A DNA stretch of 64,000 nt from Enchytraeus crypticus (taxonomy: Eukaryota; Annelida; Clitellata; Enchytraeida; Enchytraeidae). A program made the translations under genes and the position numbers. The stretch is from the NCBI GenBank assembly GCA_905160935.1, contig CAJHZI010000486.1, forward strand, positions 1 through 64,000, in the 5' to 3' direction. Below, piece by piece: positions 8,702 to 64,000 of this stretch; position 1 is the stretch's first letter; the number at the start of each line of letters is the position of its first letter. Under the pieces are notes generated by a model. The model was not told the origin of the DNA. It ran no database searches and saw nothing but the letters and a program-made list of their open reading frames with translations.

Positions 8702-9104
8702 ATCTCTCTCATTTCTCTATGGTTTCACTTCCCTATGGCCTTACTTCTCTATGGTCTCACTTCTCTATGGTCTCACTTCTTTATGGTCTCACTTCTTTAT
8801 GGTCTCACTTCTTTATTGTCTCACTTATCTATGGTCTCTTATCTATGGCCTCACTTATCTATGGTCTCACTTCTCTATGGTTACTTCTCTGTGGTCTCAC
8901 TTCTCTATGGCCTCACTTCTCTATAATCTCACTTCTCTTTGGTCTCACTTATCAATGGTCTCACTTATCTATGGTCTCACTTATTCATGACCTCACTTCT
9001 CTATGTTCTCTCTTCTTTATGGTCTCACTTTTCTATAGTCTCACTTATCTATGTTCTCACTTATCCATGGTCTCACTTATCTAATCTCACTTATCTATGG
9101 TCGG
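8702..9104 (+). repeat. 16-bp minisatellite
   Basis: About 25 degenerate units of CTCACTTCTCTATGGT. It keeps three frames open by chance because stop codons are absent from the unit. Confidence 0.9.
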
Positions 9105-11444: not shown

Positions 11445-14400
11445 GTAAGAATCGTCATCAACATTTATATGATTTCTGTGTACCACAATTATGAAATTTA
11501 AAAAATATTATGTCATAATAAATAGACCATTTGGGTACCAAATGATAAATGCCTAATGACTAAATTGCTAATTGTCCAAACGTAAGAACTGACCGCCTAA
11601 AAGTCGAATAATCGGATCGAATAAAGACAACGGTAGCATGATGTGTTTGTAAGAGTAGACTACTAGAAGTTTTCAGCTGTGGGTGGCAAAGTAAAGGGTC
11701 ACTCTAATTTATTAACAGATAATTAAATTATTAATCAACTTACTTTTTTTTCTTTTTTTTCTTCTTCCCTTTAATCCCAGTTTAACTAGGGTCGGGACAC
11801 AAATGGACCTTCTCCACTCCTCTTTGTCCCATACCAAATCAAAGTCTCTTCCATTCATTTTAGAAAATTTTTGTAGCAATTTCTGGATCCTACGCGCTCA
11901 CCAACCGAATGCCCTTTTTTGACGTTGGTTTGGATATTAGTGCTTTAGTCGTCTTCTACGACACGTGCAGTCACCGGTTGGTCTATTCTTCAAACAACCC
12001 GGACACAACACTGGGAAAATTGTTTAATTAACCTTAATTAACTTGTTAACTGATAATTATTATTTTTTCGTTATAATGTTTATTTAACAAAAATATTTTT
12101 GTCAAAGTATAAGCAATTTAATTAATTTGAACAAGGAGAATTTAGTATTTAACGAAGATGACTCTATTAGAAGATCCATTGTCTAATGATACGCTATGAT
12201 TATGCGGATTGATTGATTGATTAGTTAGCTGCTTGAATATTGAATTGATAAATTGAGAGATTGTATGAATGATCACCGTATCAACGTTTTTGATCACCGG
12301 ACTGGCATTCGTTTAGGATCTTACTTCTCCTCAGAACATTTCTTTTGCAGATTGGTCTGGGTGAATTGATCTGTAGTGATGTGTGCTGTGGGGACGTTCC
12401 TAACATCATTCCAGGATGAGGAAACGGACGTTAAACCTTTATTATTATTATTATTGATTGATTGATTGATTTACTGATTAACTTACTTATTGATTGGATA
12501 ACTGAACGATTGTTTTATTGATTGATTCAGGCACAGACGGTGTACCGGCTCTAGAAGAAGGCTACCAGTGGCTGAGAACTTTTAGTTCTGGATATCAAAT
12601 GGTCCATGGCTATGTGGCATCGGTCACGTGTGTGCTCGGTATCGTGTCCAATGTCATGAACATAGCGGTCCTTACTCGCAAGTCCATGGTTAGCTACTTC
12701 AAAAACTCTCATCTACGGAGTATTTTAATTCGCATCTCGACCAATGCTCAAAAACTCGCGTGTTAACCAGTATATCAGCTTATATATAATACTAAGTATT
12801 AATAAATAATGCTTGTCTAAATAATACTTATAATAATACTTATATAATCATATCTATAATACTTTTCTGACGTATAATAATAAATAATACTTATCAATCA
12901 TTGGCTGGAGCCAGTGGCAAAGTCGGTAAGATACTCGACCGTGAATCAGTTGATGCGGGTTCAAATCCTGGGCTCGCCCGTCACTGATTTCGCTTTCGAG
13001 TGAGGAAACTGACGTTAACCTTAGCTTTACCAGCTTTTTATCATACAATCTCTCAATTGATCAATTCAACATTCAAGCGTCTAACTAGTCAATCAATCAA
13101 TCCGCATAGTCATAGCCTAGCAATAGACAATTTATCTTCTAATAGAATCATCTTCATTAAATATATTAAAATACATTAAAACTCGCCTGTTAACCCCTAT
13201 ATTCCGAGTCCAGCTCTGACAACCTAAATGACAAGAGAAGCAGAATTCAAATCCCCGAGATAAACAATCACGGGAGTCTCAAGTATTAATGTTAACCTGG
13301 TGACTATCTACATATCCAGTTAAATCCATTTATTATAGTTTCACTGTTTCTCATTGGCTCAAGCGCATACAGCACGAACAATTTTACTATGACCTAATGC
13401 AACAATCTTCTACGTCAATGAAAAACAAGTGGAAAATTATGAACTTAGATCTAAGATGAGTTAAATAAAATATTAAATATGAAATATACGTTAAGATCTT
13501 GAGATAAATCGTAAACAAAATAACTAGAAAATAGTAGTAACATTTCATTTGCAGTAACAGCAGATCTGATCTTACATGTACGCAATGTTATCAACAGTGT
13601 TGGCGACATTATCCTCGGTATAAAGGCGTTTATAAGTCGCACCGAACCTGGTTAGCCTTGTTTTTCCATGATCAAAATGCAATTAGAATAAACTATTTTC
13701 TTTTATCTACTGAATTAACTATTGATATATCCAGGGTGTTCTTTCCTTACCTCCCAATCATTTAGGTCCGTGACTTGTTTCTTTCTAATTTTCTAGACAT
13801 ACAATTCTGCTTCCATTCAATTATCTCATTTACATGTATTTTAAATTACACTTAAAAGCAATTCACGCTCTTTACAGCTCCCTTCTAAATGATCTCTGAA
13901 TTCAATTCCTAGGTGGTTTTATTTGTTGCTGTTTAGCCTGCTGTTTCGAAGAAAAACATATTTACATTAAAGAACTCACTCTGGTATATGCATGTAAAAA
14001 TAACTAAAATAAAAATAAAATAAATAAATAAATTGCTATACTCGCCAAAATGCCTAAATGAACCTCTAATTAACAATTGCAAATTATAAAGGGAGCGGGA
14101 TTTAGCGCACTCAGTTTAGTTGTGGGTCAATTAAACTAAGTTAAGCTGCGTTCGACTCGGTTAGTACATGTTGAGTGACCACCATCGAAGACCGAGTGTT
14201 GACAGCTTTGAATAAAAACATCTTCAGGGGGTTGGAAGGTTATTGTTAAATCCTCGCGGAACCAATTTAATCTCCAACGAAAGGCAACGACTTCTAACAA
14301 CCTTGAAGACGAAAGCTGGAAATAACGAAAACTTCAAATAAAGCAAAACTAAGAAAAGAACCTCAGCAGCACATGACGTTTACATGTATATAATTGTAAT

Positions 14401-17400
14401 ACGATAAACAAAATATTCTAGGTCTGTATACAATTAACGATTTCTTTTCAGCACATACTCTAGAGTAAAATAGTATCTTATATCAAGAGCATCAGATATA
14501 AGCCAAATGCCAGGTTTACTGTTTGTTAAATTTCTAGAAAAACTGTTTTGCAAAATTCTCAGATTTAAATAGATCCGCGGTCTGAAGCCCAACCAATCTT
14601 ACACATCACGAAGATAAACAACAGATTTATTTACTGAAATATTATTAGAGTCTAAAAAAACTGGCTGAAACCTGTGGCGAAGTCGGTAAGATACTCGACA
14701 GCGGGTCAGTATGAGCGGGGTTCAAATCCTGGTCTCGCACGCCACTGACATCGCTTTCGAGTGAAGAAACTGACGTTAACCTTAGTTTTACCTGCTTTAA
14801 ATATTAATTTCTACAGTTTGTTTATATTTCTATTCCCCGTGTTGTGTCCGAGTTGTTTGAAGAATTGATCAACGGGTGACTGCACGTGTAATAGAAGGCG
14901 ACTAAAGCACTAACATTCATACCAATGTCAGAAAGGTCATTCGGTTGGTGAGCGTCTAGGCTCCAGAAATTGCTACAAAAATCTATACGAATGGAAAAGT
15001 CTCAAATAGGGGATTGACTGATGCTGTGATGTAGGACAGAGATGATTTGAGACAGTCTATTCGTATCCCGACCCTGGTAGAACTGGGATACAAGGAAAGA
15101 TGACGATGAAAATGATTTATCTATATTTCTATATTTAGATGTCGCCCACTAACTATTTGCTATATTAATTTCTGCTATTTATCTTCTATTTCTACTAACT
15201 ACCTGCCATATTAATTTCAACTATTTATCTATATTTCTATATTTAGATATCTCCCACTAACTACCTACTCACAGCCTTGGCTCTTACAGACTTGCTCACG
15301 ATGCTCTCCTACCTTCCATTCGCTCTCTACTTCCACTGCGTATCCCGTCCCGTGGAGGGGGTTGACCATCACCTCTACTGGATCATCTACCTCCTCATCA
15401 ACACATCCTTCATCATCACCACTCACACCATAGCCATGTGGGTCACGGTGGCACTGGCTGTCTTCAGATACATAGCCGTGTGTCACCACACCAGCGCGGC
15501 TGTCTGGTGCAATCTAGCGCGGGCCAAGGTTAGGTTAATGGTTCACTTTCCGCTAATCGTTTTGGGATATTTTTTCGCCGTGTTGTTTTAGGAATGTTTG
15601 AAGTATTGACCAACCGGTGACTGAATTCGGTTGCTGAGCGCCTAGGCTCCAGAAATTGATACAAAAATGTAAACGAATGGAAAAGTCTCAAATAGGGTAT
15701 TGACTGATGGATGATACGATGTAGGACAGAGAGGATTTGAGACAGTCTATTCGCATCGCGACCCTAGCTAAACTGGGATTCAAGGGAAGATGATAATTAT
15801 GATGATGATGGTGATGATGATGTTTAGGATCTTTTTCTTTCTCTACAGCACATCTTTTTTTAGATCGTTTGGGGTAAATCGATTTGTATAGTGACATGTG
15901 ATAAGGGGACGTCCCTGATATCATCCATGTATGAAGAAGAGGACTTTAAGCATTTATTGTTATTACTATTAATATTCATATTTAACAGCTAATATTTGTA
16001 AATAGTGAAAACTTGTGGTGTTTAATTTAGCTGTACACTTTTATATATATTTAAAACTGACACTATAGGCTATATTTTCTCCGCGTCATGTCCTGGACAA
16101 TGAGGAATAGATCAGCCGCGAACTGCACGTGTCGCAAGGTAAGAAGCGACTGAGCAAGAACTGAAAATGGCAACTGGAAATCACCTTAGAATTCACGTTA
16201 TTCATAGTCTGTAGGCAACATTAAGATGTATACAAAGCATAGACTTTTATGAAGCGATTAACTCGTTGATCACCGGACCGACATCGTTTGGGATCTTTTT
16301 CTTTCTCTTGAACAAATCTTTTTCAGATCGTTTGGAGTGAACCGATTTGTAGTGACATGTGACTGCGGTCACGCAATAGATCAATACACGGGATACGATC
16401 AGAAATAACTTCGGTATATCACATCATTTGCCTTTTACATTTGCTTTTTTATATCTTCATATCATTTATTTATTCATCTCAGCACAGATTATACAAACAA
16501 TAGGAACGTGCATGTAGTTAGATAAACATACAATAGGAAATAGGCTACCTAAAAGAAGCAGAACTCTGTGCGGTAGTACCATAATTAGCTGCCGTAGCAT
16601 AATCTACGTAATTCTGAAATACAAACATTTCTATTACACCACTATCATATGTTGATGCTCCCATGACGTTAGATGAAACTTCAATTCCAGTGTACAGTGT
16701 ACATAGCTTTACTCCTATAGCGCCACAAGTAAGATCTAACAAGTAACAAGTAAATCGACCACAGCTAGATTTAATAATCGATTAATTGTTGATTGATTGA
16801 TTAATATCTGATTGTTTAACCACGCTATTTCTATGTATTTATCACCTCGTGATATCGCAGTTGACGGTGCTTATAATCGTTATCTCTACTGTGCTCGTCT
16901 GCGCACCCACTAACTACATCATGTACAGACCAGTTAGGATTCGAACTGACGCCTATTGGTTTATCCAAAACGACTTCATCAGTAGATATCATCAGGTAGG
17001 CAGTACCAATGCTTAGTGATTCCCTAAAACATTCAATTTTGTGAATTAAATTTTTTATCAATCAGTATGTACTTGCAATAGATTCAGTTTCAAATAAAGT
17101 AAACATTTAAATGAATTTCGATTAATACAGTTCATGAATCAATTGATCACTCAATTCGTCAATAAACTAAAAAGCTAATGTTAACGTCAGATTCCTCACT
17201 CGAAAGCGATGTCAGTGACAGTCGAGCCCAGGATTTGAACCCTGGAGCCAATGGCGATGTCCCCATTCATTCAATCAATTGATCAATCAATCATTTAATC
17301 AATTAAACATTTGATCAATCAATCAATTGATTAATTAATCAACTTATCAATCATCTGATCAATATATCATTTCATCAATCATTTGATAGGTTAGTGTTTT

Positions 17401-17639: not shown

Positions 17640-20600
17640 AATTCTAGCTCTCTGTAGCTCTCTCTCTCTCCTTCTATTTCTCTAGCTCTTTCTCTCTCTC
17701 GCTTTCGCTTTCTCTCTCGCGCACCATCTCTATTTTCTGCCAAGTGGCAGGTTCAATATACATATTTATCTTACAGTAACCATTTAGACAAACGAATCTT
17801 TCATATCTATAGGGCCTATCTTGCAATTTATTGATCTATTGTGCTAATTTTCTACCTTCCTTGTTTTTGGTTTTCAATTGTTGTCTATCATGTTATATAT
17901 TTTGCTGTTAAAACATTTTCTATATCAATTAATTATTTCAATCTACTTAGTGCCACACATCTGTAGCGCTATCGATATAGCTGCATGTATCCGTGCTTGT
18001 CTGTCTGTCTGTCTGCTTGTCTGTCTGTTTTTCTGTCTGTCAGCTTGTCTGTCTGTCAATTTGTCTGTCTTTTTGTCTGCCTGTTCGATTGTCTGTCTGC
18101 TTGTCTGCCAGCTTGTCTCTCTGCCTGCTTGTCTGTCTATCTGCTCTACTCAGTTGCTCTTTGAGAGCGCGGATGTCTCACGACGTTGTTCGATAGCTCG
18201 CTATTTCTAATTTAGACTTTACGAGGATTTGATCCCGGGGCCACTGGCTGACCGATACACCTGCAGTCTGCAGCAGTTATCCCCTGGGCTACATTCGTGG
18301 CTTCCTTTTTCTGTAGACGACTTCTTAAGTGGCCTGAAATAATCATAAGTCTCCACATGTATAATTTTCAATGTCACAACAGCAAAGATGATAAAAAGTC
18401 AAAATGATAGTTTGACAATTTTTTTTATTTTTCTGCAAAGACAGACACCAACACCTATTTTATTAAAATTAAAAAAGCTGGTAAAGCTATGGTTAACGTT
18501 AGTTTTCTCACTCGAAAGCGATGCCAGTGACGGGTGAGCCTAGGGTTTGAACCCGCACATACTGATCCGCGGTCGAATATCAACAATTGTTGTAGATGTT
18601 TGCTGTCTTGTTGCTTCATGGCACGAAAATATGTCAACATTCACAAATAACGCTCTAATTCTGATGTTCACTTGACTTCCGTTTATGTATAGGACACTTA
18701 TCTGTTTTCAGTAATTAATTTTCACTTGTCATCATCTGCACTAGAACCTTATCCTCACCAAGGTCGGGATTTTAAAATTTTGACGCAATTTCCTGAGCCT
18801 AGACTCTCACCAACCGAACGTCTTTGTTGACGTTGGTTTGGATCTTTGAGCCTTGTCGCCTTTTACGACACGTGCATTTCACTATTGGCCTATTCTTAAG
18901 CAATTCGGACACACACTGGTAACCCGGGCACAAAACGGGCATTTGAACATCATTTGTATAAAATAAAACTCTTTATATCTTTCCGCGCTTTTCCGGGTCC
19001 AATTGCTAACTGCATTGGTCGTAAGAGGTTACCAAGCAAGAACTGAGGAATGCAATAGGAAACCATTTCAGAAACCATAATTTCCTGTATTATAGGCTGA
19101 ATGAGATGCGGATTAGAAGTCAGCCTTTTGCGAAGGGACTAACTTGTGGATCTAGGTAGTGATCCTTATAAAAGCAGCCTCTGAGATGTCTATCTTGAAC
19201 CTGCCTCTTGCAACCCTCGAGTTGTTGGAGGCAGGTAATTAGTTGAGCGAGAATATGACAAGTATTTTAACCATGTTCCACTTAATTTAATGTCTGAACA
19301 AGTAATCTCGGCAGAAGCCTTTCATCTCTTCTAGATAGATCAACGTGCGTCAAGGGAAGCCCGTGGAAGCCATAGACTTGTATTTTAATACCTGCTCAAA
19401 ACATTCAACCAACCTCTTGGGAATTTCACAACAGTGAAATCGTTCTATAGTACCAAGAGTTCAGTCTCTTGCGAGTCTCCAATTAAAATTAATTCACCCT
19501 AACGCTCGTACACCAGTTACGAAGAGCTACAGTGTATACTGGAATTACTAAAGTTGTTTGCTTCCATGAGCTTTGAAATAGTTTCGTTTAAATTTCAATC
19601 CAAGCGGGATAATGCAGATTGTATTTAGTATAAGTTAAGAATTGATTGCAAAATGATATCAGAGAGACATTATGTATTAATCTGTATAATTTGTCTGGTA
19701 AATTTGTAATGATTAACGATTGATAGTAACCATGTAAGGAGGAAATGGACCTTAAAGAAGCACCTGTGCTTCCTGACCAATTGTGTCTTTATGTGACGTT
19801 TCATTTTATGTAAGAATTTACAGCAATAGTAATCATTACTATTGATTAATTATTGAATTTCTAGTTGATTAGTTTTTTATCGATTGATTGATTTGCCCCA
19901 TATTGTGTCCGGGTTGTTTGAAGAATTCACCAACCGGTGACTGCACGTGTCGTAGAAGGCGACTAAGGCACTAAGCTGCATATCAACGTCAGAAAGGGCA
20001 TTCGGTTGGTGAGCGACTAGGCTCAAGAATTGTCTACAAAAATGTAAACGAATGGAAAAGTCTCAAATAGGGTAGAGACTGATGATATGATGTAGGACAG
20101 AGAGGATTTAAGACAGTCTATTCGTATCCCGAACCTAGTTACACTGGGATTCAAGGGAGGACGATGATGATGATGATGATAGTGATGATGATGATGATGA
20201 TGATTATGATGACGATTATAATGATGATGATGATGATGATAATCGATTGATTGATTCAGCGAGAGAGAGTGTCGTGAGCACACAAGAACAACGGCCATGT
20301 TGGTCGCTGTGGTCCTCTGCTTCGTCATCACTGAGCTGCCTCAGGGAGTGCTGGCCTTTCTGTCTGGAATTGATGCCGACATCTTCGCTAATGTAAGAAC
20401 AATCAATCAATAAATCAATTAATCAATCACTCAATACTCACTCACATACTCACTCGCTAACTCACTCACTCACTCACTCACTTACTCACTCACTCACTCA
20501 CTCACTCACTCATCCACTCACCCAATCAATCAATCAATCCATCAATCAATCATTCATTCAATAAATTAATAAATAAATAAATAAATAAATCAATTAATTA

Positions 20601-22504
20601 ATTAATCTATACACCAAATTAGCTGCCTGGCTACCAATCAAACAACCAATCAACCCAGCCAATCAATGAATCAATCATTCACTCAGTCATTCAATAAATC
20701 ATTAGAACCTCGTGTTACTCTGTTCCTGAGTATATATTGCCTAAAATAGATAACATTAACTAGTCACGATTAATTTGCTCGTATTTGCCGAGGTACGTTA
20801 CATTTCCTGAACAGATCCTTCGCTAATGGTGCCTTTTGTAACAGTTGGCTCAGCTGTTTGGTATGACACTGAAACAAATTTATGAAAGACATAAGAATTG
20901 AAGGCCAGCCTGTCACTGATGTGCGCCTAGGGATGAACCGACGTTAAACTGTATACAAACAGACCTTTATTGTAATAAATACTGATGTCATCTATTTTAT
21001 AATCTAAAACACTCTTTTACGTTAATTTAGGTTTAATTGTAGTTGATTTAAATTGATTTGGCTTTATTTGAAAAGACAATTCCTCTAAAATATATGTGCA
21101 GGTCGATCTGTCAATATATCAACTCTTGTAGTGCTGCCGTGTCCAAAAATAATCATTAGAGTAGACTGAACGGATTTTTCTCATTTAGAAAAAACAGTGA
21201 CAAAGTTTCACTTTGCTTGCGTTGACAACCATCCCCCTCCACACCTTCCTTCCTCCAATCGCTTCTCTTTGTACGAAGGATTAAACGCCAGTCAGACAGG
21301 GGCAGAGAGAGAGAGAGAGATAGATAGAGAGAGAGAGAGAGAGAGGAGAGAGTGAAGGAGCGGAAGAGGAAGACGAAAGAATGAGTTTAATAGGCTGACA
21401 AGAAGCAGGATAGAAAATGACCTTGGAACGAAAGAACAAGAGAGAGAGAGAGAGAGAGAGAGAAACAAACAGAGAGAGAGAGAGAGAGAGGGAGAAAGAT
21501 ACAAAGAGAGAGAGAGAGAGAAATATACAGAGAGAGAAGAGAGAGAGAGAGAGAGACTAAGAGTAATCATAAGAGAGACTTGCAAATGGCATTTCACTGT
21601 TCGTTGAACACTTGACGCGACAATCCTCCTAAAAACCATATATTCTGGTTTTAACCCCCTCCACATACCCCTTTCTGATATCCTCTTTCTTCCTTTCCAC
21701 AATTCTTTAACAGCCATCTGTACTAGCATTACCATCAGTTACTTCAATTTTTCTCTTCCACCTTTCTTGTATTTCTTGGTATATCTCGATTTCAATCTCT
21801 CTGCATTCTGTCTTGATTTTCGACAAAATTCTTATAATCCAACATAATTATAATCATATCCTTATTAGTAAGCACGTACCATGCATTCCTACTTGTTATA
21901 ATCTAATTAATCTAACAAAATCTGTCCAACCCTAAAATCCTGGCGAGAATGTGTTCAATTGCTGTTTTTATAGTCCGTTGGAGTAGAATCCTCTTAAGAC
22001 GTCCGTGATATTGCCTTTATGCTACGAACTGGACTTTAAATTCATATTGATTGACTGATTAATTGATTGAATGAATGATTGAATGATCGATTGATTGATT
22101 GATTAATTGATTGATTGATTGAGCAGGTTTACGTGCCCCTAGGTGACGTATGGGACATCCTAGTCCTGATCAACAGCGCCGTTAATTTTGTTCTCTACTG
22201 TTCTATGAGTAAACAATTCCGTCAAACCTTCAATCACCTCTTCTGCCCCTCCACGCCCAATACTGGCTCAACCCTATCCCATCGTGTCTCCACCACCAGG
22301 ATCCATCTGCTGCGCAGGTCCCTGATCGCCGCTTCCGGCCCAACGGGGCCAACTAGTCGTCAAGATTACGCGACAGCGGATGTAGATGTTTGTGATAAAG
22401 AAAACTGGCAAGAAAATCGTTTTCAGTCTTTTGTTCATCATAAGAATTACAAAAGCTTCGTTAGTTCAGACAGTAGGTTGACCAGCGCAGCGGCTTTTGT
22501 TTAG
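11336..22504 (+). CDS. Peptide GPCR, DMSR / sex-peptide-receptor-like (gene span)
   Basis: Class A receptor assembled from exons 11336-11444, 12531-12688, 15275-15528, 16861-16995, 17409-17599, 20260-20392 and 22127-22504; coding phase agrees at every junction except 12688/15275. The product is about 450-460 residues: an extracellular N-terminus with NES and NLT glycosylation sites, seven membrane segments and a long Ser/Thr-rich tail. Family marks are ALTDLLTML in TM2, FRYIAVCHH in place of the DRY motif, NFWVFGVVLK in TM5, VITELPQGVLAF in TM6 and NSAVNFVLYC in TM7. Known relatives (nematode DMSR, insect myosuppressin and sex-peptide/myoinhibitory-peptide receptors) bind short amidated neuropeptides at the plasma membrane, so a neuropeptide ligand is inferred. 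About ten residues between TM1 and TM2 are missing from the model. Identity as this receptor class is strong; the ligand is unknown. Confidence 0.85.
11750..12020 (-). mobile_element. Family-C retroposon in GPCR intron 1
   Basis: The minus strand reads GTGTCCGGGTTGTTTGAAGA, CCGGTGACTGCACGTG, TCGTAGAAGACGAC, GGGCATTCGGTTGGTGAGCG and AACTGGGATTAAAG. It recurs at 14835, 15575, 18731 (minus) and 19895. Confidence 0.68.
12146..12268 (+). repeat. Inverted repeat, left arm (upstream of GPCR exon 2)
   Basis: Matches the reverse complement of 13040-13166 with about 13 mismatches over about 118 aligned bases by hand. Shared blocks include CTATTAGAAGAT, ATGCGGATTGATTGATTGA and AATTGAGAGATTGTATGA. Confidence 0.8.
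12290..12455 (+). mobile_element. Family-B retroposon, long copy in GPCR intron 1
   Basis: Runs from GATCACCGGACTGG through CTCCTCAGAACATTTC, GATCTGTAGTGATGTG and GAGGAAACGGACGTTAAACC to an ATT tail that turns into (TTGA)n. That tail continues to the acceptor of GPCR exon 2. Confidence 0.68.
12531..12688 (+). CDS. GPCR coding exon 2 (TM1)
   Basis: The acceptor is TTCAG at 12526-12530 after a TTGA-rich tract; the donor is ATG|GTTAGC. The exon encodes the end of the N-terminus and TM1 (YVASVTCVLGIVSN, then NIAVLTRKSM) and ends in phase 0. It is flanked by an inverted repeat (12146-12268 and 13040-13166). Confidence 0.85.
12903..13038 (+). mobile_element. SINE-A copy (tRNA-derived SINE), well preserved
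   Basis: Best plus-strand copy. It has a perfect pol III A box TGGCAAAGTCGG, a near-perfect B box GGTTCAAATCC about 45 bases later, then the body CACTGATTTCGCTTTCGAGT and a 3' end reading GACGTTAACCTTAGCTTTAC. It lies in the GPCR intron after exon 2, directly beside the right arm of an inverted repeat. Confidence 0.8.
13040..13166 (-). repeat. Inverted repeat, right arm (downstream of GPCR exon 2)
   Basis: Begins right after the SINE-A at 12903-13038. Loop content between the arms is about 770 bases and includes the 158-nt exon. Confidence 0.8.
14663..14800 (+). mobile_element. SINE-A copy in GPCR intron
   Basis: A box TGGCGAAGTCGG (perfect to consensus), B box GGTTCAAATCC, complete 3' end GACGTTAACCTTAG. 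Same intron as the copy at 12903. Confidence 0.8.
14835..15117 (+). mobile_element. Family-C retroposon left of GPCR exon 3
   Basis: Runs from CCCCGTGTTGTGTCCG through CGGTTGGTGAGCGTCTAGGC and CGTATCCCGACCCTGG to a GATGACGATG tail. Direct-orientation partner of the copy at 15575. Confidence 0.7.
15275..15528 (+). CDS. GPCR coding exon 3 (TM2-TM3)
   Basis: The acceptor is CTCACAG; the donor is AAG|GTTAGG. It begins with the last two bases of a codon, then LALTDLLTML (TM2), extracellular loop 1, TM3 and FRYIAVCHH. The incoming phase (one base expected) does not match the phase-0 end of exon 2, so an intervening small exon is needed. Two direct family-C retroposon copies flank the exon. Confidence 0.9.
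15575..15821 (+). mobile_element. Family-C retroposon right of GPCR exon 3
   Basis: Internally deleted after CCAACCGGTGACTG; keeps TGCTGAGCGCCTAGGCTCCA, GACAGTCTATTCGCATCGCG and a GATGATGATG tail. Confidence 0.68.
15822..15972 (+). mobile_element. Family-B retroposon in GPCR intron
   Basis: GTTTAGGATC, GATTTGTATAGTGACATGTG, GACGTCCCTGATATCATCC, then a TTGTTATTA tail. Abuts a family-C copy on its left. Confidence 0.6.
16078..16200 (+). mobile_element. Family-G repeat
   Basis: TCCGCGTCATGTCCTGG, AGAAGCGACTGAGCAAGAAC, GGCAACTGGAAATCACCTTA. Similar to 18986-19090 and the minus strand of 24455-24695. Confidence 0.45.
16267..16368 (+). mobile_element. Family-B 5' part
   Basis: GATCACCGGACCGACATCG through GATTTGTAGTGACATGTGA; the 3' half is missing. 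Confidence 0.55.
16861..16995 (+). CDS. GPCR coding exon 4 (TM4, ECL2)
   Basis: Exactly 45 codons between ATCGCAG and CAG|GTAGGC, phase 0 on both sides. It encodes TM4 (LTVLIIVISTVLVCAPTNYI) and a loop containing TDAYWF. Too short to stand out as a long ORF; recognised from splice sites and continuity with the neighbours. Confidence 0.85.
17168..17258 (-). mobile_element. SINE-A copy, internally deleted
   Basis: The 3' end and B box (GGATTTGAACC) run straight into the GGAGCCAATGGCGATGTC head. The segment carrying GATCCGCGGTC is missing. Confidence 0.65.
17262..17390. repeat. (AATC)n tract before GPCR exon 5 (opposite orientation)
   Basis: AATCAATTGATCAATCAATC and similar; the only acceptor-side tract with the ATCA orientation. 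It contains AATTGATT switches that can self-pair. Confidence 0.8.
17409..17599 (+). CDS. GPCR coding exon 5 (TM5, start of ICL3)
   Basis: The acceptor is CGTACAG; the donor is GACTC|GTAAGT, an ideal 5' splice site, leaving two bases over. It encodes TM5 (NFWVFGVVLKMGPCVLLSVL) and a basic intracellular loop start (KVAKLRRKSL). A CT microsatellite begins within ten bases of the donor. Confidence 0.9.
17690..17775 (+). mobile_element. Family-F copy in GPCR intron 5
   Basis: CT tract, then TCTGCCAAGTGGCAGGTTCA. Confidence 0.45.
17997..18142. repeat. (CTGT)n microsatellite in GPCR intron 5
   Basis: Degenerate CTGT repeat with CTTGT variants. Confidence 0.85.
18215..18300 (-). repeat. tRNA-like sequence (SINE head or tRNA pseudogene)
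   Basis: The minus strand reads TGTAGCCCAGGGGATAACTG and then GGGATCAAATCCTCG, with A-box and B-box spacing of a tRNA. Not a convincing functional tRNA. Confidence 0.35.
18470..18582 (-). mobile_element. SINE-A copy, 5' truncated
   Basis: Keeps the tail, B box (GGGTTTGAACC) and GATCCGCGGTC, and stops before the A box. In the GPCR intron after exon 5. Confidence 0.65.
18731..18940 (-). mobile_element. Family-C retroposon in GPCR intron 5
   Basis: Minus copy carrying CGACCTTGGTGAGGATAAGG, GCCTAGGCTC-like sequence and CACGTGTCGTAAAAGGC. Confidence 0.6.
18986..19090 (+). mobile_element. Family-G repeat
   Basis: TCCGCGCTTTTCCGGGTCCA, GGTTACCAAGCAAGAACTGA, AATAGGAAACCATTTCAG. Confidence 0.42.
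19895..20250 (+). mobile_element. Family-C retroposon abutting GPCR exon 6 acceptor
   Basis: Full copy from CCCCATATTGTGTCCGGG to a long (GAT)n tail at about 20161-20240. Only a short TTGA run separates it from the splice site. Confidence 0.72.
20260..20392 (+). CDS. GPCR coding exon 6 (TM6)
   Basis: The acceptor is ATTGATTCAG; the first base C completes the TC of the previous exon. It encodes REHTRTTAMLVAVVLCFVIT followed by ELPQGVLAF, a typical TM6 for this receptor class. The donor is AAT|GTAAGA. A GAT-tailed retroposon ends about ten bases before the acceptor. Confidence 0.9.
20398..20600. repeat. (AATC)n and (CACT)n tract after GPCR exon 6 donor
   Basis: Starts five bases inside the intron with AATCAATCAATAAATCAATT, passes through about 80 bases of CACT, then AATCAATCAATCAATCCATC. 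Confidence 0.85.
21307..21555. repeat. (GA)n-rich region in GPCR intron 6
   Basis: Several GA/GATA tracts separated by short unique stretches. Confidence 0.85.
21998..22055 (+). mobile_element. Diverged family-B 3' end before GPCR last exon
   Basis: GACGTCCGTGATATTGCC and CTGGACTTTAAATTC, leading into the TTGA tract that ends at the 22126 acceptor. Confidence 0.45.
22047..22121. repeat. (TTGA)n tract before GPCR last exon
   Basis: ATTGATTGACTGATTAATTG onward to GATTGATTGATTGAGCAG; complementary to the tract at 20398 at the other end of the intron. Confidence 0.85.
22127..22504 (+). CDS. GPCR last coding exon (TM7 and tail)
   Basis: The acceptor is GAGCAG after a TTGA tract. It encodes TM7 with NSAVNFVLYC, then helix 8 (SKQFRQTFNHLFCP, whose Cys is a possible palmitoylation site) and a Ser/Thr-rich tail of about 90 residues. 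It stops with TAG at 22502-22504. The NPxxY motif is replaced by NFVLY. Confidence 0.9.
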   Translation, partial: VYVPLGDVWDILVLINSAVNFVLYCSMSKQFRQTFNHLFCPSTPNTGSTLSHRVSTTRIHLLRRSLIAASGPTGPTSRQDYATADVDVCDKENWQENRFQSFVHHKNYKSFVSSDSRLTSAAAFV

Positions 22505-30381: not shown

Positions 30382-33119
30382 GTAGATATTCAGAGTTGAG
30401 TACTAATTTTCTGTTTAGACTCTCAGCCTATTGTCAGAAAAATTTCTTTTTTACTTAAGGTGGTTTCACTGCTTTATTCCTAATTGTAAATAATTTGTAG
30501 TTGAAAGAGGTGCATTACTCATGAATCGTGCATTTGTTATAATTTTATGTTAACTACTGATTTGTTATAATTTGCATGTTTACATTGGTAGTGATTATCC
30601 ATTTGTAACTGTTAAACATTTTCTATATATGCCCTTTTTTAAAATTAGAAACTCAAATCCTCGAATGAGTTTTTGCTTGAAATAAATGACTGCTAAATTG
30701 ACTTGCTATTCTGGTGAACAAGAATCGTTGTACTGACTTTTGTATAATTAAGTTAACGAAAAGTTTAAGATCTGGATGGTTTATATTTCTATATTGAGAA
30801 TATATGGTGTATCCCTTAGAACTTTATTGTAAAGTGCTCACTGAACAATGACAATTGACGTCAAAGTTAAATTGGAAAATGGATTATATTCCCTTTGACT
30901 ATTAATTAATTTATTTATTGGTTAGATTCCCATTGTAGGTTTTGTACAACTTCATTGTACAATAACATTGTACTATGCATGGCTTGCATATTATTTTGTT
31001 AGTGATTGATGTATTATAATTTATATGCAGAAATTGTAAGTCGCAACCAAGGAGCTTCAGGCGCTGGTGTCACAGCTAATAGCTTAGCTGCTGTCGCAGC
31101 TGCTAGCTCACAGCTGCAGTTGCAGTGCAAGAGAATGAAGCGTTTACATTCTTACGAAATCAATCCTTCAGTAAGAAAACGTCAGCAGGCTAGACTACTT
31201 AGGTAATGTTTCTTACTTATCCACTGAACTTGCCAAACAACTGTTTCCTGATATAAATTCATGTAAAAAAGCCAAGTTTAATGTCAGTTTCCTGCTCAAT
31301 AGCTTGTCAGTGACGGGAAGAGCACTAGATTTGAACCTGCACCAACTGATCCGCAGTCAAACAATTTGCCATCGAACCATCAGCTCAGCTGCCTGTACTT
31401 TCAGTATCATGTGAATATTTTGTCACTAATATCTCTGAATATGTCCCAGTCCAACTGAATTCTTTCGTAATTGATTCATGAAATATCACCAGCAGTTACT
31501 ATTGTTAGATTTTGAGCTTCCAAAATTGTAGCGAGCACCATTTGCCCTCATTTATCAGTTATTTATTTGATAAAAAATTTAGTGCAGTGCAGACAGGCAT
31601 CTAGCTCTTATTTGTCATGTGTGTTGTTGAGTAATTATATATTTATATATGTATACTTAAATTTAAAGCTTTTATGCTATGATATATAATTGTATGTACA
31701 TTTGTTGCTTATTTTACCAGTTACTGAGCACTTCACTTTTCTGACTATAATTTAATCCTTTCATGATTGCTAGCTAATAACAAGTATAAGCTAATGAAGT
31801 ATAAGATCACCTCATTAGCTAACAATCAGCTAACAAGTAGTTAAACTATCTTTTTCTACTATTCTCATCATTATTTACTTAGCTGTGCTGTACAGACCTT
31901 GGAATCTAGCAAGAATATAGCTCAAGAAACTGTGTTACTGACTAGCAATGTTATTTAGGAAGCTGCACGCCCTGATGGAAGAATACATAGCGCGTGTGGG
32001 TCAGCAAGCCGTCCTCGTGTGCTGCTCCTCCAGTAAACAGCGTCGTGAGCCGTCGAGGCTCTATCCTCAACATCAAGCTCAGAGGCATCCTTACAGAGTC
32101 TATGGGTCACAGCCTCTTGAGACTGTTGTAAGTGTATCCTCCTGTAAATTTTATTTGCAGGAGGCAAAATTATATTTTTATAAAATTATAAAATTATATT
32201 TTATTATTAGAATTTTATCATTATTACTTTATAATTAGCTTTTATTTGCTCTGTAAATTTTATTTTTATTTACAGTTTTTTGATGTTAATTTTAGTTGAA
32301 GCACTGAAAAATGTCAGTTGTTATTACTCGTTGACAGTGCCTATGGGATTTACAGGCATCTAAATGACTACGATCTCATTAAACAACAATTCATTTTTTA
32401 TAAATTTGGAATTCAGAATTGATTTTTATATTTTAATTGTTATTGATTGTGTAGTATCAAATATTAAGGTACTGGAACTTATTTTAACTCCAATCACTGT
32501 TAGCGCTAAGTTAATGTTAGTTAATACTGACTGGAAACCGATGTGCAAAAAATTTCCAAAATTTCTCCCATTCGCTGGATAATAATTCTACAAATTTTAC
32601 TTTCCGATCAGTTTCACCGGAAATTGGTCCCCAGAAGATGCTATTGCTATAATTTAAAATGATTCCAAATGACATTCACGTGAACATGTACAAGTATTTG
32701 TAATGATAACAAAGCTGGTATGAATGAACGAACGAATGAATGAATAAGTGCTGAATGAATGCGTTAAGTATTAATAACTGAATCATTTTTTGTATAATTG
32801 ATTGATTGTTTTGTTGATTGATTGATTTATTGATTGATTAATTGATTGATAGGTGCGTAACCATAGACGGAAGATAACGAGCAGCCTGGAGGCGGTGCTT
32901 AGCCAGCAGACTCCACCCACTGATGACTCATCAGGACCTGCTACATCGCCTCTATTTGATATGCCCGCCCTCTCAGTTGATGGTGTTCCCGCCTCTCTGA
33001 CTAATATGACTCAGGTATGTCTCTCTATCTCCTGCTCTCTCTCTCGCTTTGTCTGACTGTCTGTCTGTCTATCTCTCTCTCTCTATCTCCCTCTCTTTCT
33101 TACTCTCTCTCACTCTCTC

Positions 33120-33161
<42 letters not shown>

Positions 33162-36100
33162 ATTAAGAATAATAGTCCCTGTAGTATAAGACCACCAATC
33201 TATATGAGAACTAGATAGTGTATGATTAGCTACCTGACTGAGTGATTTCATCAATATTCTGAAAGGATCGATTGATTGACTGATGCAGGCTCAGTTGAGA
33301 GCGTTTATTCCAGAGATGATGAAGTACTCGACGGGGCGCAGTAAGCCGGGCTGAATTGATTGATTGATTGATTGATTGATGCAGGCACAGTTGAGAGCAT
33401 TTATCCCGGAGATGATGAAGTACTCGACAGGGCGCAGTAAGCCGGGCTGGGGTAAGCCGGATTGTAGACCAGTGTGGTGGCCACAGGATGTGCCGTGGGC
33501 CAACGTGCGCAGTGATGTCAGGGATGAGACTACAAAAACTTCTGTAATTATCCTGACTGTCCTATCAATCAATCAATCAATCAATCGTTGTTAGAGTAGT
33601 GAACATCTTATTCGTGTATGCAGGTTCTGCCTGAAGGCAGTCCACAAAGTTTGAAGTGTTCTTTGCTGTATCAATCAATTGATCAGGCAATCAATTAGTA
33701 ATTTGTTCTGCTGGCAGTCTCAGCCCTTTGCACTTTTTAACTTATTGACAGACTTTCGTGGTCTACTTGTATATTGTAGAATATTTTTGTGAAAATTCTT
33801 TATCAATATGAATAATTATATCTTGCAGAATAATTTCAAATATTAGAGTAATTATGATTGTGTGTAGAATGCATGTTGTACTGCGTGATTGTGTACTAAG
33901 ATGAGTGTAAATGCCTTGATATCTGTACAATGTTGTGGTTCTTAAGGTAAACTGGACTGTTGCCTTACGTAACATCATAATATCCTGCTACAGCTATCAT
34001 GGAAGGGAAGACCTTCTTCATCATACTAACTCCTCCCTCTGCTTAGATGGGTTAAGCCCACCTCATAAACGAACCAATCACCATGCAGAAGCAACCTCAG
34101 TGAATTGTCAATCAATTCAATCAGCTGCTCTATCGCTCCACCCTCATAACACAGCAGCTGAAGGAGCTGCAGCTATTCTAAATGCCATTCAATCAGCTGC
34201 TACTACCACTGTTGGGTCAGACCACGCCTCCTCTCTATCTGATTGGTCGCTCGTGGAGCTAGAGGGCGGGAATATTACAGCAGAAGACTCCAATCACCAA
34301 TCTGTTCAGTTCGTTCAGTTGTTAGATGGAACACAGGCCCGGCTGGTGCATACTGTTAGTTTTCTTATTTTATTAAACTCAAGGAATATCAGTGATTGAG
34401 TGAGCATAAGATATAAACTCTGACTTTCTGATCTGGAGACAAAACAACCTAATCCTTCTTGTTACCATCTTCACCAAGTCCTGGACGTGATCGATATATT
34501 GTGTAATATTTTGTCATATACGATGTAGAATTTGAACAATATTGATGATGCACTTCTCAACTGTTATTAAGTAGTAGTAGTACATATGTTTATTTAAAAG
34601 TCCTCAAACATTGACAAACAATTGTGAAAGGAAATAAATCAATAAGTCAAACTTCAAAGTGTGAATCAACATATGTAGCATCAAACAGAAAATAAAATTT
34701 GCTCACTACGGCCATCAGAGAGGGCACTGAAGTACCCTATAGAGCTGACCACCGCTTAAGTTACTTTATTTTGTTATTAAGTTTCAGTATTTTGTTATTA
34801 AGTTGCTTTATTTTGTTATTAAGTTACTTTATTTTGTTATTAAGTTGCTTTATTTTGTTATTAAGTTGCTTTATTTTGTTATTAAGCTGCTTTATTTTGT
34901 TGTTAAGTTTCAGTATTTTGTTATTAAGTTGCCGTACAGTCTGGTGAAGTACGAATCTGCTGCGGACGAGGAAATGAAAGACGAAGAGTGTGGGGGCAGG
35001 AAACCAGATTGTCGATCAGGCAAGGGCAGGAGCCAGACAGTCACAGTTTCAACTGATCATGGTCAACAACAACAACAAGAGACCGCCCCGCAACCCATTT
35101 TTGTGGCATCGGGAGATTGGGGTGGTGGACCACTTAGTAAGCATTTAAAACTGTTAGAGTGTATTTTAAGACTCACTTCAGATGATGATTTTTGCATCTA
35201 GTCTTCAGTTATTTTTGGTTTTCTGGATTTTGGAATTTGCACCGTTTTTGGACCTTCTTTTTGCTCAACGGCATGATTTTGTCTCACTAGTACTCAATGT
35301 TGTCATTGATGACTGTAGCACTCTAGTTGTTGTTATTATTATTGTTATGATTTAATAAGAAATTTGTGTTATTAAAGCTACACAATGTTCCCATAAAATT
35401 TCAATAAGACTAAATAATATTAATTAACTCTACCTTAAAATGATGGTTTATCACATTTGAAGCTCGTTTTCGTAGAAATGCCTTTAACCGTTACCATTTA
35501 ATTCATCCAGTGTGAAAGCTACAAGCACATCTCCTAATCATCTCCTAATCATCTCCTAATCATCTCCTAATCATCTCCTAATCATCTCACCTCTTTTAAT
35601 TGCTATTTTGAATGTAATGAATTTTGTCTGTCTGTGATTTCGTTAGGGGTTTATTTGTGTCCCCACCTGTATTATGCAAAAGCTCTGAATTAACTTATGT
35701 TTTAATTTAGTGTCTAACATATTTTCTCTTCTAAAAATCTAACAAATGTTTTCGTATTTTAAATGGAACATTTAAACTAATTATTTACTTATATTTTGCG
35801 CACTCTACTTTTAGCGTATTGTTTATTAATTGCTAACACTTGCTCAATGGCAGCTCATCTCTTACTATAAATTACATTTTTATAATAGTAATAAAATAAG
35901 GGATTTTATAAGAGCGCCGCTCTATGTAATAATCCACGGTAGCGCTAAGGGAGTGAATTATATCCACTATGGAACAAAACTTTCCTAAGCTCTGAAGAGC
36001 TAGACCTGACTTCTGATTTTCTGGATTTTGAAATTTGCACCATTTTTGGACCTTCTTTTTGCTCGCCGGCTTGATTTTGTCTCAATAGTGCTCGATGTTG

Positions 36101-41010: not shown

Positions 41011-41129
41011 ATGTCAAGGGTATATCCTTGTTCAGTGAAAATCCCTCATCAATACTCCACAAGCATTAATCTAGAAAGACTGACTGGGGGTACTATGACC
41101 TCTTAAATCTTAGATAGCAGCGATAAAGG

Positions 41130-41264
41130 TAAAAAAGCTAATGTTTACGTCAGTTTCCTCTCTCGAAAGCGATGTCAGTGTCGGGTGAGCCCAGGATTTG
41201 AACCCCGCACATACTGATCCGCGGTCGAGTATCTTACCGACATCGCCACTGGCTCCAGCCAGCT
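41130..41264 (-). mobile_element. SINE-A copy, full length
   Basis: Tail, GGATTTGAACC, CTGATCCGCGGTCGAGTATC and the GGCTCCAGCC head are all present. Forms an inverted pair with the copy at 41774. Confidence 0.75.
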
Positions 41265-43002: not shown

Positions 43003-45487
43003 GTATGTCTGTCTGTCTGTCTGTCTATCTGTCTGTCTGCCTGTCTGTCTGTCTCTCTGTCCGTCTGTCTATCTGTCTGTCTGTCTCTCGGTCTGTCTGT
43101 CTCTCTGTCTGTCCACCTAGCAGTGTCTGTCTGTATGACTGTTTGCCCGACTGTTTTTATGCCCCTCAATCTGTCTGCCTGTCTGTTACACTGTTTATCT
43201 CCCCGACTGTCTATCTGTTTGTCTCTCTCTGTTTTTAATGATTGTGTCTGTATTCGTCTTTTTTATTTTCTAGTAAACAGAACAATAAACGCATACTAAA
43301 TAAACAGACACAATAAACTGATTATCTTTCTGGTTTTCTTTCTGTCTGTAATTTTTTGACTAGTGAGAATGCATGATGGTATTTCCACTCATGAAGGATA
43401 ACTAAATAATATAAAAGTAAAGCTAAAGCTGGCAAAACTAGTGTTAACGTCAGTTTCTTCGCTCGAAAGCGATGTCAGTGGCAGGCGAGCCCTGGATTTG
43501 AACCTCGCACATACTGATCCGAGGTCGCATATCTTACCGGCATTGCCACGGACTCCAGTAAGTTAAGGTTCTTTACACCTTTTGTATTCTGTGCATGATA
43601 TTTGTATAATGTTTCTGATATCTGACATTGTATTTTTGAATGAACATGGTTCTCTCTCTCCCGTTCTCTCTCTCACTAACTCTCTCTCTCTCTCTCTCTC
43701 TTCCTCTTTCTCTCATTTGTCTCTGTGGCTGTTGATGTCTTTCTGTGATGGTTTGTGTGAAATGTTCGACTAAAGTTTGAGATAAAATAAGTTAAAGACA
43801 CATGACTGTGCTTTCGTGGTAAGGGCACATGTTAGTGCTTTCGTGGCCCGTGTGTCCTTATACACTTTATCTGCATGTATTTCTGGTATACGATTTTATC
43901 GAAGTGAAATAAACGTGATTAAATGCAATTCAATTCAAGTTACTGTAGATCTAACCCGACAGATAATTATTGAATTATTAAAGAATATACTAATTATGTT
44001 AGCTTATCTTTTATTTAGTTAGAATTTTATTTACTCTTTGGTGGATCTGTCTAATGTGTTTATTTGCTGACTGAGAAACAAACTGACTAATATTTATCAT
44101 GAATGACTAGCTATTTGAATTTTAATTTTGCTGTATGTATTGTCTCCAATTTGATTACTTTTTTGATTGATTAGATAATTTAAAAGTTGACTTCTTAGAA
44201 TTAAATACTGAATGATTATTTATTTTGATTGATTGATAGTGATTGACTAACTAAATAGACTAATTGAGTTGAATGATTAAATTGACTGAGTTGGTTGAAT
44301 AATTCATTGATTAATTGATTGATTGGTCGATCGATTGATTGATAGGTTGATTGATTATTGAACGATCGATCTCTTTATCGATTGATTGATTGTTTGTTTG
44401 ACTGATCGATTTAATAATTGATTGATTGCTTATTTATTTGATTGATTGATTGATTGATCGATTGATTGATTGGACAGCTGGTACGTGATCACCCCAGCCC
44501 TGTACACCTGTGTGGATGACTCAGTGGCTGGCTGTACCTACGATCAACAGACTGAGTGGTACTCTAATGTCGAGTCCTTCAACGCTTCCATGCAGAACGA
44601 CGACTGTTATCCTGGTATGTAAAACCTGGTAAAGCTAATTTGTAACGTCAGTTTCCTCAATCGAAAGCGATGTCAGTGACGGACAAGCCCAGGGATTGAA
44701 CCCCGCACATACTGATCCGCGGTCGAATATCTTGCCGACTGGCTCCAGCAAGTGTATGTTCAATAAAGCTTTAAGATAATTAATGCAATGTCATCACCCA
44801 AGATGATATCTGTCACTTTACATACAGTATGTTAAGATCTGACTGATAAACAATAGAAACCATTGTCCATTTACTGTCCCAGGCCAAAGGGGGGGGGGGA
44901 AGACAACCATGGGGTGGCCAGACCTTCCTCTTGGGCAGGGAGCCCTGGCTGTCACTCTAGGTCCCCTATAGGCACCTCACTGATTGGGTTCTCAATACTA
45001 GATGCTCCAGGGTTAATTCAATTCTTACTTCACTACTCATATTATCAAAGCTATGACTGCCTTTCGATTGATTTAGATGTTTATTTGATTGATTTGTTGA
45101 TTTTTTAGTATTATTTTCAGTAATATACACATTTTGTTAACTTTATTCAATTGAGTAATTGATTAATTAATTGATCGATTGATTGATTGATTGATTAGAC
45201 TTTACTAACAAGCAGACTGATTTATTCTACTGCTTCGACTGATTGATTGGTTGATTGATTGGTTAATTGATTGATTGATTAATTGATTGATTGATTGACT
45301 GATTAGGCTGTACGGACCAGGCTAACAAGCAAACTGGGTTACTCTACTGCTCTGACTGATTGATTGGTTGATTGATTGATTTATTGATTGATCGATTGAT
45401 TGATTGATTGATTAGGCTGTACGGACCAAGCTAACAAGCAGACTAGGTTATTCTACTGCTTTGATTGTTTGATTGATTGATTGATTA

Positions 45488-45518
<31 letters not shown>

Positions 45519-48500
45519 AGGCTGCACGGACCAGGCTAACAAACAGACTAGGTTATTCTACTACTTTGAATGATTGATTGATTGATTAATTAATTGATTA
45601 GGCTGCACAGACCAGGCTAACAAGCAGACTGGGTTATTCTACTGCTTTGACTCGGTTAACTTTGCCGGTCTCGCTCTAACCATAAGTCAGGACACCAGCA
45701 AAGGACCATCCAGCACAGAGTGCACGTAAGATTATTTAATTAATTAACTAATTAATTAATTAGTGCTTATAAACGTAGAAGATTACTACTTACTATCGTT
45801 TACGTAAATTTTAGCGGAACATCTTTATCATATTGTTAAGAAACAGGTACTCTATAAAGCGTGACCTAATTAGAATGTCACGAACAGTTATATTACTAGA
45901 TTGTATAATAGTTATACATGTAGATAGCTACATGTAACTATAGAACTAGCACCGTAGAAAAGAGCTTGGACAATCAGTTATTTTTGTGGTCTTACGCTTA
46001 ACTAATCTTAAACATTCCCTAACAAAAATTGCATGTACATGTATTTTTTATAAGTGTTCGATTTACATACAGTAATATTATAACGAATTTGCAATCACCA
46101 CATTAAAGAACTTAGCGTACCAATGGAAGTTGTATCTTCTTGTGTTTGCGTTTTTCTGCGACCAACGAAGAAAAAGACAATGGCAACCATACTGGGATTA
46201 GCGTGATGCCCTAAAGCAGCAACTTTGAAAGTCTTTAAACGGTTCACATCTTTCCTATCGGCTGTGATTGAGAATTTGGACGTAACTCAACACTGATTGA
46301 TAGACTGTCGTCTTTGACTCTGATTGATTGATAGAATATCATACGTGATTGATTGATAGGCTCTCGTCTGTGACTGTGATTGATTGATAGAATATCATGT
46401 GATTGATTGATTGATTAATTGATTGTCTGCGTCTGTGACTCTGATTGATTGATAGAATATTATATGTGACTGATTGATTGGTTGATTGATAGATAGACTG
46501 TCGTCTGTGACTCTTTGATTGATTGATAGAATATTATATGTGACTGATTGATTGGTTGACTGTCGTCTGTGACTCTTTGATTGATTGATAGAATATTATG
46601 TGTGCCTCATTGACTGATTGACAGGCTGACTTCAAACAACTGATTAACTTTTTACTAATTGTGTGTTAGAATTGATCGATCGAATTATTAATTGTTTGAT
46701 TGAGTAATATTTATGTAAATATCGTTACATTAGTTAATTGATTGATTATTGATAGATTAATTTATTGATTGCTCAATGGATTGCTCTCACAGAACCCTAG
46801 CCTCAATGAATTCGTGCCTGACGAGCGCGACAAGCGGGTGCCCAGCCCTGAATGACGTCGCGTACGCGAGAATTAGCGATACGGCGGGGGGCAATGCGGC
46901 CTACGCGCAGTGCGGGGTCAGCCCCTACCAGCCCTCCCCTACCAGCGCCCCCCTAGAGATCCTCAACACCCTCCCCCAGCCTACCAATCCTCCCACCTCT
47001 ACCAGCTCATCTGATCGTATGTAGTATTCATTAATATTTACACTTTCCTGTAATTAATAGTAAAAATGTTATAAATAAATGTTATAATGTATTTGGATGA
47101 TATATCTATTTGTATTAATCAGCATCATCCTCCCTTGAATCTTAGTTTAACCAGGGTCGGAAGATAAGTTTGTATTAGTAATTTGTAGAAATATATTTTA
47201 CATTGCACGTAGAAAAGATTTTAGGCAATTAGAACTACTTAAATTTTCAAATAGAGCCGTTTATAGAGCAGCAATTGGCATCTGTTCGTGTTATTGCAAT
47301 GTCCTATGACCGCAATGTTGTGATGTATTGTTTGTCTGACTGCCTCCAGATTGCTTCATTGATTGAATGATTAATCGATTGAATGATTAAAGTATTTATT
47401 AATCGATTAATTGATTGGTTAAGTGGTGTTATTATTAATTAATTAATTAATTGGTTAATTACTTGACTGGCTGATTGATTGATGGTTGATTGATTGATGA
47501 ATATATTGATTGATTGCCAGACTGACAGACTGATTGCCTAACTAACTGACTGGGTGAATGATTGATGCATTGAAAGATTGATTTTTTATTTACTGTCTGC
47601 CTGACTGACTGACTATCGGCCTGACTGATTGATCGATTGATTTTAAGTGACTGACTGAGTGACTGAATTAAAAACTTGATTGATTTATTGATTGATTTGT
47701 TGATTGATTCAGGCACAGTTAAGGGCACTGATCTAGCTGTGATCATTCTAGGAGCTCTACTGATTGCAGCGACCATACTCATCATTATCGTAGCGATATG
47801 TCTCGCCATAAGGTTTGTGCTCTTCTATCTGTTAGGTTGCAGACAGCAGCTCCAAGACATATATTTTTACTCGGTTTTGCATTCACTCGCAAATGAAGGT
47901 AGAATAAGATACTATGTTGATATCGGTATATATGTAACATATTTACCATGGGCTGAGCCAGTGGCTCATTGGGAAGTTGTTTGACAGCGAATCAGTAAGG
48001 GCTAGGTTTAAATCAGTTCTCTCCCGCCACTGACAAGATAATCAGCAGAAAACTGACGTTAAACTTTTATTTAGCTGTTTAGAATCGTCAGCTTTGGCTC
48101 AGAAAATGTAGTAGCAAAGGTGTTTTCATATATCCTTCCCTAGTATCTGCTCTTGTCGACTCTTGCGAAGACACTCAGATTTCAGCTGGCCAGTTTAAAG
48201 TTTGTCTGAAACAATAAATGATCCTGAGTTAACGCTATTCCAGAATATTCAAAAGGAACATTTTGCGTACAAATATTAATTAACACTACATGACTGTATG
48301 TGAACAGAAGAAGAGCTGTAAAGAAGAGGAACATTTGGAGGGACTGGAGGCCTAACGGGCAGGAGGTGTATAGGGACGAACCCAATCAGTTCATCAGACG
48401 AGAAACGATTGACTTCAGGTCAGCTAACGAGGGAGGAAGGGTCTACAGGCCCCACTACGTCAGCGAAGAGAGAGACGAGAGAAATGTCAGGGAGGTGTAC

Positions 48501-50594: not shown

Positions 50595-50625
50595 AGAGAG
50601 ACAGTCGATTGAGGAATAAATAACA

Positions 50626-56086: not shown

Positions 56087-64000
<7,914 letters not shown>

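Follow-up and report, generated by a model that had tools for sequence, protein, structure and literature searches.

The window analysed here is a 64,000-nucleotide stretch of the Enchytraeus crypticus genome (assembly GCA_905160935.1, contig CAJHZI010000486.1, positions 1 to 64,000 of the forward strand), and the genome searched comprised 524 Mb in 802 contigs. All genes recognised in the window by homology, i.e., a rhodopsin-like GPCR, NRF1 and a thyroglobulin type-1 exon, lie on the + strand, as does a set of exons at 44–47 kb that is recognised by reading frame and phase. The focal intron (20393–22126, 1734 nt) lies between exons that are parts of the rhodopsin-like GPCR, as indicated by exon phase and by Pfam 7tm_1/Srw matches; it starts with GTAAGAACAATC and ends with TTGATTGAGCAG. 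A first-pass annotation of this DNA had described the intron as opening with GTAAGAAC(AATC)n and finishing with (TTGA)nGAGCAG, which is the arrangement that we find, and it had placed its splice coordinates correctly, with 12 acceptors on the G of AG and 4 donors on the G of GT. It had further called the two tracts exact reverse complements; they are complementary, but near-exactly so, with interior mismatches.

On the donor side, GTAAGA and an (AATC)n tract occupy 20393–20435 (+ strand, as for all tracts given below), and 20403–20435 is predicted to pair with 22090–22122 on the acceptor side, with about 32 expected pairs. The duplex energy is −38.6 for the two tracts alone and −50.3 for the 100-nt intron ends, the latter being the strongest among 47 introns. 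A second ATCA stretch follows (TCAC)n at 20523–20552 and is predicted to pair little with the acceptor tract. The acceptor tract itself, (TTGA)n with the GAGCAG acceptor (22046–22126), is the tail of a SINE-like relic: the SINE-like 3′ end and the first part of its (ATTG)n tail lie at 21998–22060, where 54 of 62 aligned bases match a consensus typed from other copies. Copies of this SINE-like 3′ end are dispersed in the genome; it finishes with GGAACCGGACGTTAAATTCTT, and (ATTG)n often comes next.

Comparable tracts recur across the window. In the GPCR, a TTGA tract with the acceptor of an upstream exon lies at 12453–12530 and, like the focal one, is preceded by the SINE-like 3′ end, here with gaps; a further TTGA tract (16789–16860) precedes the acceptor of a GPCR exon by about 60 nt, and another, with its acceptor, precedes the exon before the focal intron (20245–20259). 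The sole exception in the window is an antisense (TCAA) tract at 17267–17353, upstream of acceptor 17408. NRF1 carries a TTGA tract and acceptor at 32797–32852 and, at 33266–33384, a tandem duplication of tract, AG and exon start, in which the exon-like start of the upstream copy lies at 33289 and a second tract (33355–33380) is followed by the acceptor consistent with the homologous reading. An NRF1 exon donor, GTAATT, placed by phase and homology, is followed by an ATCA tract at 33564–33586 (33544–33586 in all), and no TTGA tract lies at the acceptor paired with this donor (exon from 33947). Further downstream, TTGA tracts with acceptors occupy 44263–44477 (long and interrupted), 46737–46792, 47676–47712 (exon backed by an open frame only) and 63600–63624 (the thyroglobulin type-1 exon), and 45150–45601 holds an array of tract, AG and exon start with copies from 45307, 45416 and 45521 ahead of the true exon at 45602. 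Donor GTAAAC with an ATCA tract lies at 56487–56548, and a possible donor with an ATCA tract reaching the window end lies at 63913–64000; the latter is plausible, but is left out of all counts because its exact place lacks independent support.

Our site list for the window holds 14 acceptors, each supported by homology, phase or an open frame, and 8 donors, and it includes donor 43003 and acceptor 33947. A sense TTGA tract lies within 100 nt of 11 of these 14 acceptors, the antisense orientation is found at 17409, and neither orientation is found within 100 nt of acceptors 15247 and 33947. Since only 9 of 525 background 100-nt pieces of the window carry such a tract (Fisher p = 2e-15), the acceptor tracts are not a chance arrangement. 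TTGA runs of at least 10 nt number 58 sense and 12 antisense in the window. On the donor side, ATCA follows 3 of the 8 listed donors (20393, 33544 and 56487) and TTGA none. The earlier count of sense tracts at 11 of 20 acceptors is thus borne out for the 11, whereas the total of 20 is not reproduced, and of the four donors said to precede ATCA the first three stand, but not the exact place of 63913. The same annotation had found the reverse orientation at no donor and at one acceptor (17408), and our 8 donors and 14 acceptors give the same result. Downstream of TTGA acceptors, three exons from different genes (12531, 33385 and 47713) open with GCACAG, a common start that is probably due to chance.

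To this window list we added sites from a crude codon-based exon chain model that is blind to the tracts, giving 96 acceptors and 81 donors from three sources, i.e., the window (picked for the feature), loci picked for tracts, and kinase exons taken blind to tracts. Loci L001–L006, L007, L008, L010, L011, L013, L014, L023 and L024, the duplicates L039–L042 and predicted exons scoring below 3 were left out of this set, and donors L059–L078 lie outside the 81. Sense runs of at least 10 nt were found within 100 intronic nt of 24 acceptors and antisense runs at 2, compared with 52 sense and 12 antisense among 1675 background 100-nt pieces, a background whose pieces lie more than 300 nt from any listed site and which still contains unlisted exons (Fisher p = 9e-14). 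With 8-nt runs, the counts at the 96 acceptors are 26 sense and 4 antisense. By source, sense tracts were found at 11 of 14 window acceptors, 10 of 51 acceptors in tract-picked loci and 3 of 31 kinase acceptors; the kinase set alone does not differ significantly from its own background (10 of 247, p = 0.17). As the kinase exons were taken blind to tracts, the unbiased rate is nearer 10%, an imprecise figure, and the window stands out as a hot spot. Tract coverage at the 24 TTGA acceptors rises from position −40, with its peak zone at −30 to −10 and its maximum at −20 to −10 (16.9 of the 24), and 17 of 26 tracts stop 2–7 nt ahead of the exon. Sense tracts upstream of acceptors are therefore observed in the coverage peak, in the full set and among the kinase exons. 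In this sample ATTG is the only tetranucleotide enriched at acceptors, which rules out a general microsatellite effect there.

The orientation bias extends to the whole genome. The 20-mer (TTGA)5 has 10828 + 12365 genome matches, compared with 197 + 187 for the reversed word. A TTGA tract followed by N0–10 and YAGG occurs 5589 times (3253 + 2336) and the reversed tract in the same setting 1478 times (858 + 620), both counts taking in overlapping matches, so that the sense orientation of TTGA ahead of acceptor-like sequence characterises the genome as a whole. When distinct places were counted by hand among the matches listed up to C101:291035, 65 were sense and 18 reversed (binomial p = 2e-7). 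A TTCA control in the same YAGG pattern gives 46 versus 39, and the TTGA bias is therefore unit-specific against this control. The strand-specific enrichment at acceptors, for which a genome-wide count had been proposed beforehand, is thus upheld.

At several TTGA acceptors the tract is itself part of a larger repeated unit, comprising the tract, AG and the first tens of exon bases. Such exon-edge repeats are visible at L007, L009, L011, L016, L019 and L025 and, in the window, at 33266–33449 and 45150–45650. Upstream copies of the first 30 nt of the exon accompany 6 of 24 TTGA acceptors but 3 of 70 others (p = 0.008), and a reversed-query control found none at 94. On visual inspection, TGA(T)- or CTG-like exon words mark the junctions in both window arrays and at L009, L011 and L016, and no clear word of this kind is seen at the junctions of L007, L019 and L025. 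Read onward, the upstream NRF1 copy meets a stop at 33352, before the real exon, and all three upstream copies in the 45-kb gene likewise run into a stop before theirs; stops interrupt all three frames of a TTGA tract and no frame of TCAA. The arrays can be old, since the kinase relatives L049 and L050, which are 88% identical over 651 aligned bases, both hold decayed exon-edge copies. A mirror array was observed at the kinase donor L064, where exon end, GTGTGG and ATCA tract are repeated in tandem; in both arrangements, the acceptor arrays and this donor array, the exon lies 3′ of the TTGA strand.

We read the TTGA tract as a splice-compatible 3′ splice-site element, one that most likely supplies branch-site candidates, and give this reading about an even chance. 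The tract would arise from a locally growing tetranucleotide repeat and, in some cases, from the (ATTG)n tails of SINE-like elements. In a sizeable minority of introns, sense (TTGA)n lies where the branch point and the polypyrimidine tract would belong. The sequence UUGAU fits the branch-site consensus YUNAY. One orientation may thus have been kept because it is compatible with splicing, as every unit offers a UUGAU, U makes up 50% of the tract and there is no internal AG; whether by tolerance or by selection, such retention would leave the sense strand at the acceptor. The tract may then recombine with TGA(T)-like words of the adjacent exon, a duplication through microhomology that would yield tandem copies of tract, AG and exon start. 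The stops inside the tract would make the upstream copies useless, so that only the last copy gives the full reading frame.

The species' own splice sites bear on the branch-point part of this reading in several ways. At 66 tract-less acceptors the branch zone shows no enrichment of YTNAY words, so these acceptors provide no internal evidence for UUGAU as the branch site of this species. Within acceptor tracts, substitutions fall on the U and A of YUNAY in 15 of 47 cases and elsewhere in 34 of 82, with no clear avoidance. An altered U2 snRNA was considered as well and rejected, as the genome holds 32 exact copies of the canonical branch-binding stretch (23 bases that include GTAGTA); these copies and the coverage peak at −30 to −10 speak for the branch-point reading. 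U2 snRNA-like tandem arrays lie on contigs C83, C318 and C639, with a spacing of mostly about 691 bases. Three multi-exon series resemble the U2AF large subunit (U2AF65-like; C450:2009128–2020693, C397:157605–163220 and C353:25135–32127), each of their exon matches being below the family cut-off, and they are possibly paralogues.

A serious rival to the branch-point reading is that the TTGA tracts are passengers, i.e., microsatellites seeded by SINE tails and slippage that are tolerated at exon edges and play no part in splicing, an explanation that we regard as a distinct possibility, if not a probable one. The SINE-like 3′ ends ahead of the focal and 12530 tracts speak for it, the exon-edge arrays look like tandem duplication without selection, and constraint inside the tracts shows no clear sign. 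However, mere tolerance does not obviously explain an orientation ratio of 24 to 2 or a peak at −30 to −10, and a recognisable SINE-like 3′ end was scored upstream of only 2 of the 24 acceptor clusters, suggesting that SINE-like tails are one source of the tracts but not the main one still visible. Among the other clusters scored, this 3′ end precedes 2 of 6 donor-antisense clusters, 1 of 14 unlisted clusters with AG and an ORF, and 14 of the 86 remaining.

The donor tracts raise a different explanation, first suggested for the focal intron, namely that paired ATCA and TTGA tracts bridge the intron and draw donor and acceptor together, as has been reported of zebrafish AC/GT repeats; we consider it improbable. 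It is supported by the predicted end-to-end fold of the focal intron and by the two window introns with both tracts, which form the strongest end-to-end duplexes of all 47 (−50.3 and −49.6). Among the 81 donors, antisense runs of at least 10 nt occur at 7 and sense runs at none (p = 1e-5 relative to background, and 0.0035 when the window is left out), and with 8-nt runs the counts are 8 and 3; by source, the antisense-tract donors are 3 of 8 in the window, 2 of 47 in tract-picked loci and 2 of 26 among kinase exons. Local A/T skew was rejected as the cause of this orientation, as tract-less donors are T-rich rather than A-rich. In the window, moreover, the ends of TTGA-acceptor introns pair better with their own partners than with random donors (7 introns, p = 0.003).

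Outside the window, by contrast, TTGA-acceptor introns show no advantage of their own donors over random ones (9 introns, p = 0.66). Over all 47 introns there is no overall difference in duplex energy between own ends and random donors (p = 0.21), and the 16 TTGA-acceptor introns give p = 0.056. Both ends are listed for 51 introns. Three of these carry a tract at each end, 14 at the acceptor only, 1 at the donor only and 33 at neither, so that 14 of 17 introns with a TTGA acceptor lack a complementary donor tract (13 of 16 for 10-nt runs). Conversely, an ATCA donor is found in 4 introns, and in 3 of them the acceptor has TTGA (p = 0.10); one of these 3, 56487–63624, may hide missed exons. Two of the six donor-side clusters are SINE-like tails by score, and by eye the donor tract of L012 resembles such a tail too.

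Genome-wide, GGTAAG donors show no ATCA excess, with 112 antisense and 163 sense tracts within 30 nt; the sense count is inflated by a repeat and by arrays, and the test is of limited reach because GTRAG occurs in only 27% of the 73 listed donors without ATCA. A count at AGGTA donors (718 antisense versus 336 sense; 57 versus 23 distinct places by hand among the matches listed up to C173:260552) would favour donor tracts at face value. We rejected it as donor evidence, which is a judgement, because no listed antisense row reads AGGTAAG and because many rows are acceptors on the other strand, with exons holding TACCT. Two AGGTA + ATCA arrays, at C113:342069–342509 and C171:1647312–1647752, have identical spacing and words and probably belong to a duplicated or haplotype-duplicated region.

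Taken as a general rule, bridging is thus rejected by the many TTGA-acceptor introns without a donor tract, by the pairing test outside the window and by the GGTAAG count; the focal intron, and possibly 56487–63624, do fit the proposal. A complementary repeat at the donor end is the exception, not the rule. Individual introns, the focal one among them, may have ends that pair, most introns would need no such pairing, and it is not the general purpose of the acceptor tract.

Introner-type elements, i.e., introns with tetranucleotide inverted repeats as their ends, would account for the inverted repeats just inside both splice sites of the focal intron, but are very unlikely and are rejected for the window, where self-comparison revealed no shared whole intron, only dispersed repeats, the longest about 280 nt, and tandem arrays, and the 5′ partner is absent from most TTGA-acceptor introns.

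Several known systems resemble the TTGA tracts in part. The (AC)m–(GU)n introns of zebrafish, described by Lin et al. (2016), are reported to be bridged by complementary end repeats and to need less U2AF2 for splicing (PMC9198270, PMC9024468). The focal intron is similar to the introns described there in that its end repeats are complementary and predicted to join the splice sites; the repeat here, however, is a tetranucleotide, and the 3′ tract is common whereas its 5′ partner is rare, with complementary repeats at both ends in 3 of 17 TTGA-acceptor introns overall, the focal one included. Human CFTR intron 6 carries a polymorphic GATT(5–7) repeat at c.744-33; in the published report, CFTR minigenes showed minor exon 7 skipping with both alleles, the repeat being judged an unlikely cause of variable phenotype (PMC4449874). 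Both systems place a sense (GATT)n of variable length upstream of an acceptor, with the same unit and orientation, but CFTR has one short tract in one gene, whereas here long tracts lie at many acceptors and tandem copies of exon starts occur. SINE-like repeats with simple-repeat 3′ tails are matched by the dispersed 3′ end with (ATTG)n and by the focal tract, which is such a tail, but not by the 22 of 24 acceptor clusters without this 3′ end. A known example of intron gain by tandem genomic duplication (PMC4974935) is alike in being a tandem duplication, which in the present genome carries a splice site and exon sequence; it differs in that the unit here is tract, AG and exon start, it recurs at TTGA acceptors, and no new intron is shown. 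Among the matches listed in the open-licence literature, CFTR apart, there was no report of TTGA, TGAT or ATCA repeats at intron ends genome-wide.

In its widest form, which we offer as a speculation that may well prove too broad, the splice-site reading would make one tetranucleotide a standard genome-wide 3′ splice-site module, i.e., an expandable array of putative branch points that replaces the pyrimidine tract, is spread partly by SINE tails and multiplies as cassettes of tract, acceptor and exon start, with the spliceosome picking the last copy, probably by exon definition, and stops in all frames discarding mistakes. If this were true, an expanding microsatellite could supply splice signals across a genome. 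The arrays would be a natural system of tandem, near-identical 3′ splice sites of which only the last gives the full reading frame, in which branch-point redundancy and exon definition become directly testable. The case is also a warning: complementary repeats can come to lie at the two ends of an intron with no bridging involved.

We note several other repeats in the window. Just upstream of acceptor 15247, which has no TTGA tract, a 46-base unit resembling the start of the next exon is doubled at 15148–15239. A dispersed repeat of about 282 nt lies in two GPCR introns shortly before acceptors (14835–15116 and 19896–20177, 85% alike), and more copies of it lie elsewhere in the window. A second dispersed repeat has many copies on both strands, including 12902–13037, 14661–14804, 41124–41262, 50468–50595 and 51279–51410, and contains what we take, by eye, to be a tRNA-like box. 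Finally, a 16-base unit forms a 25-copy array at 8707–9102.
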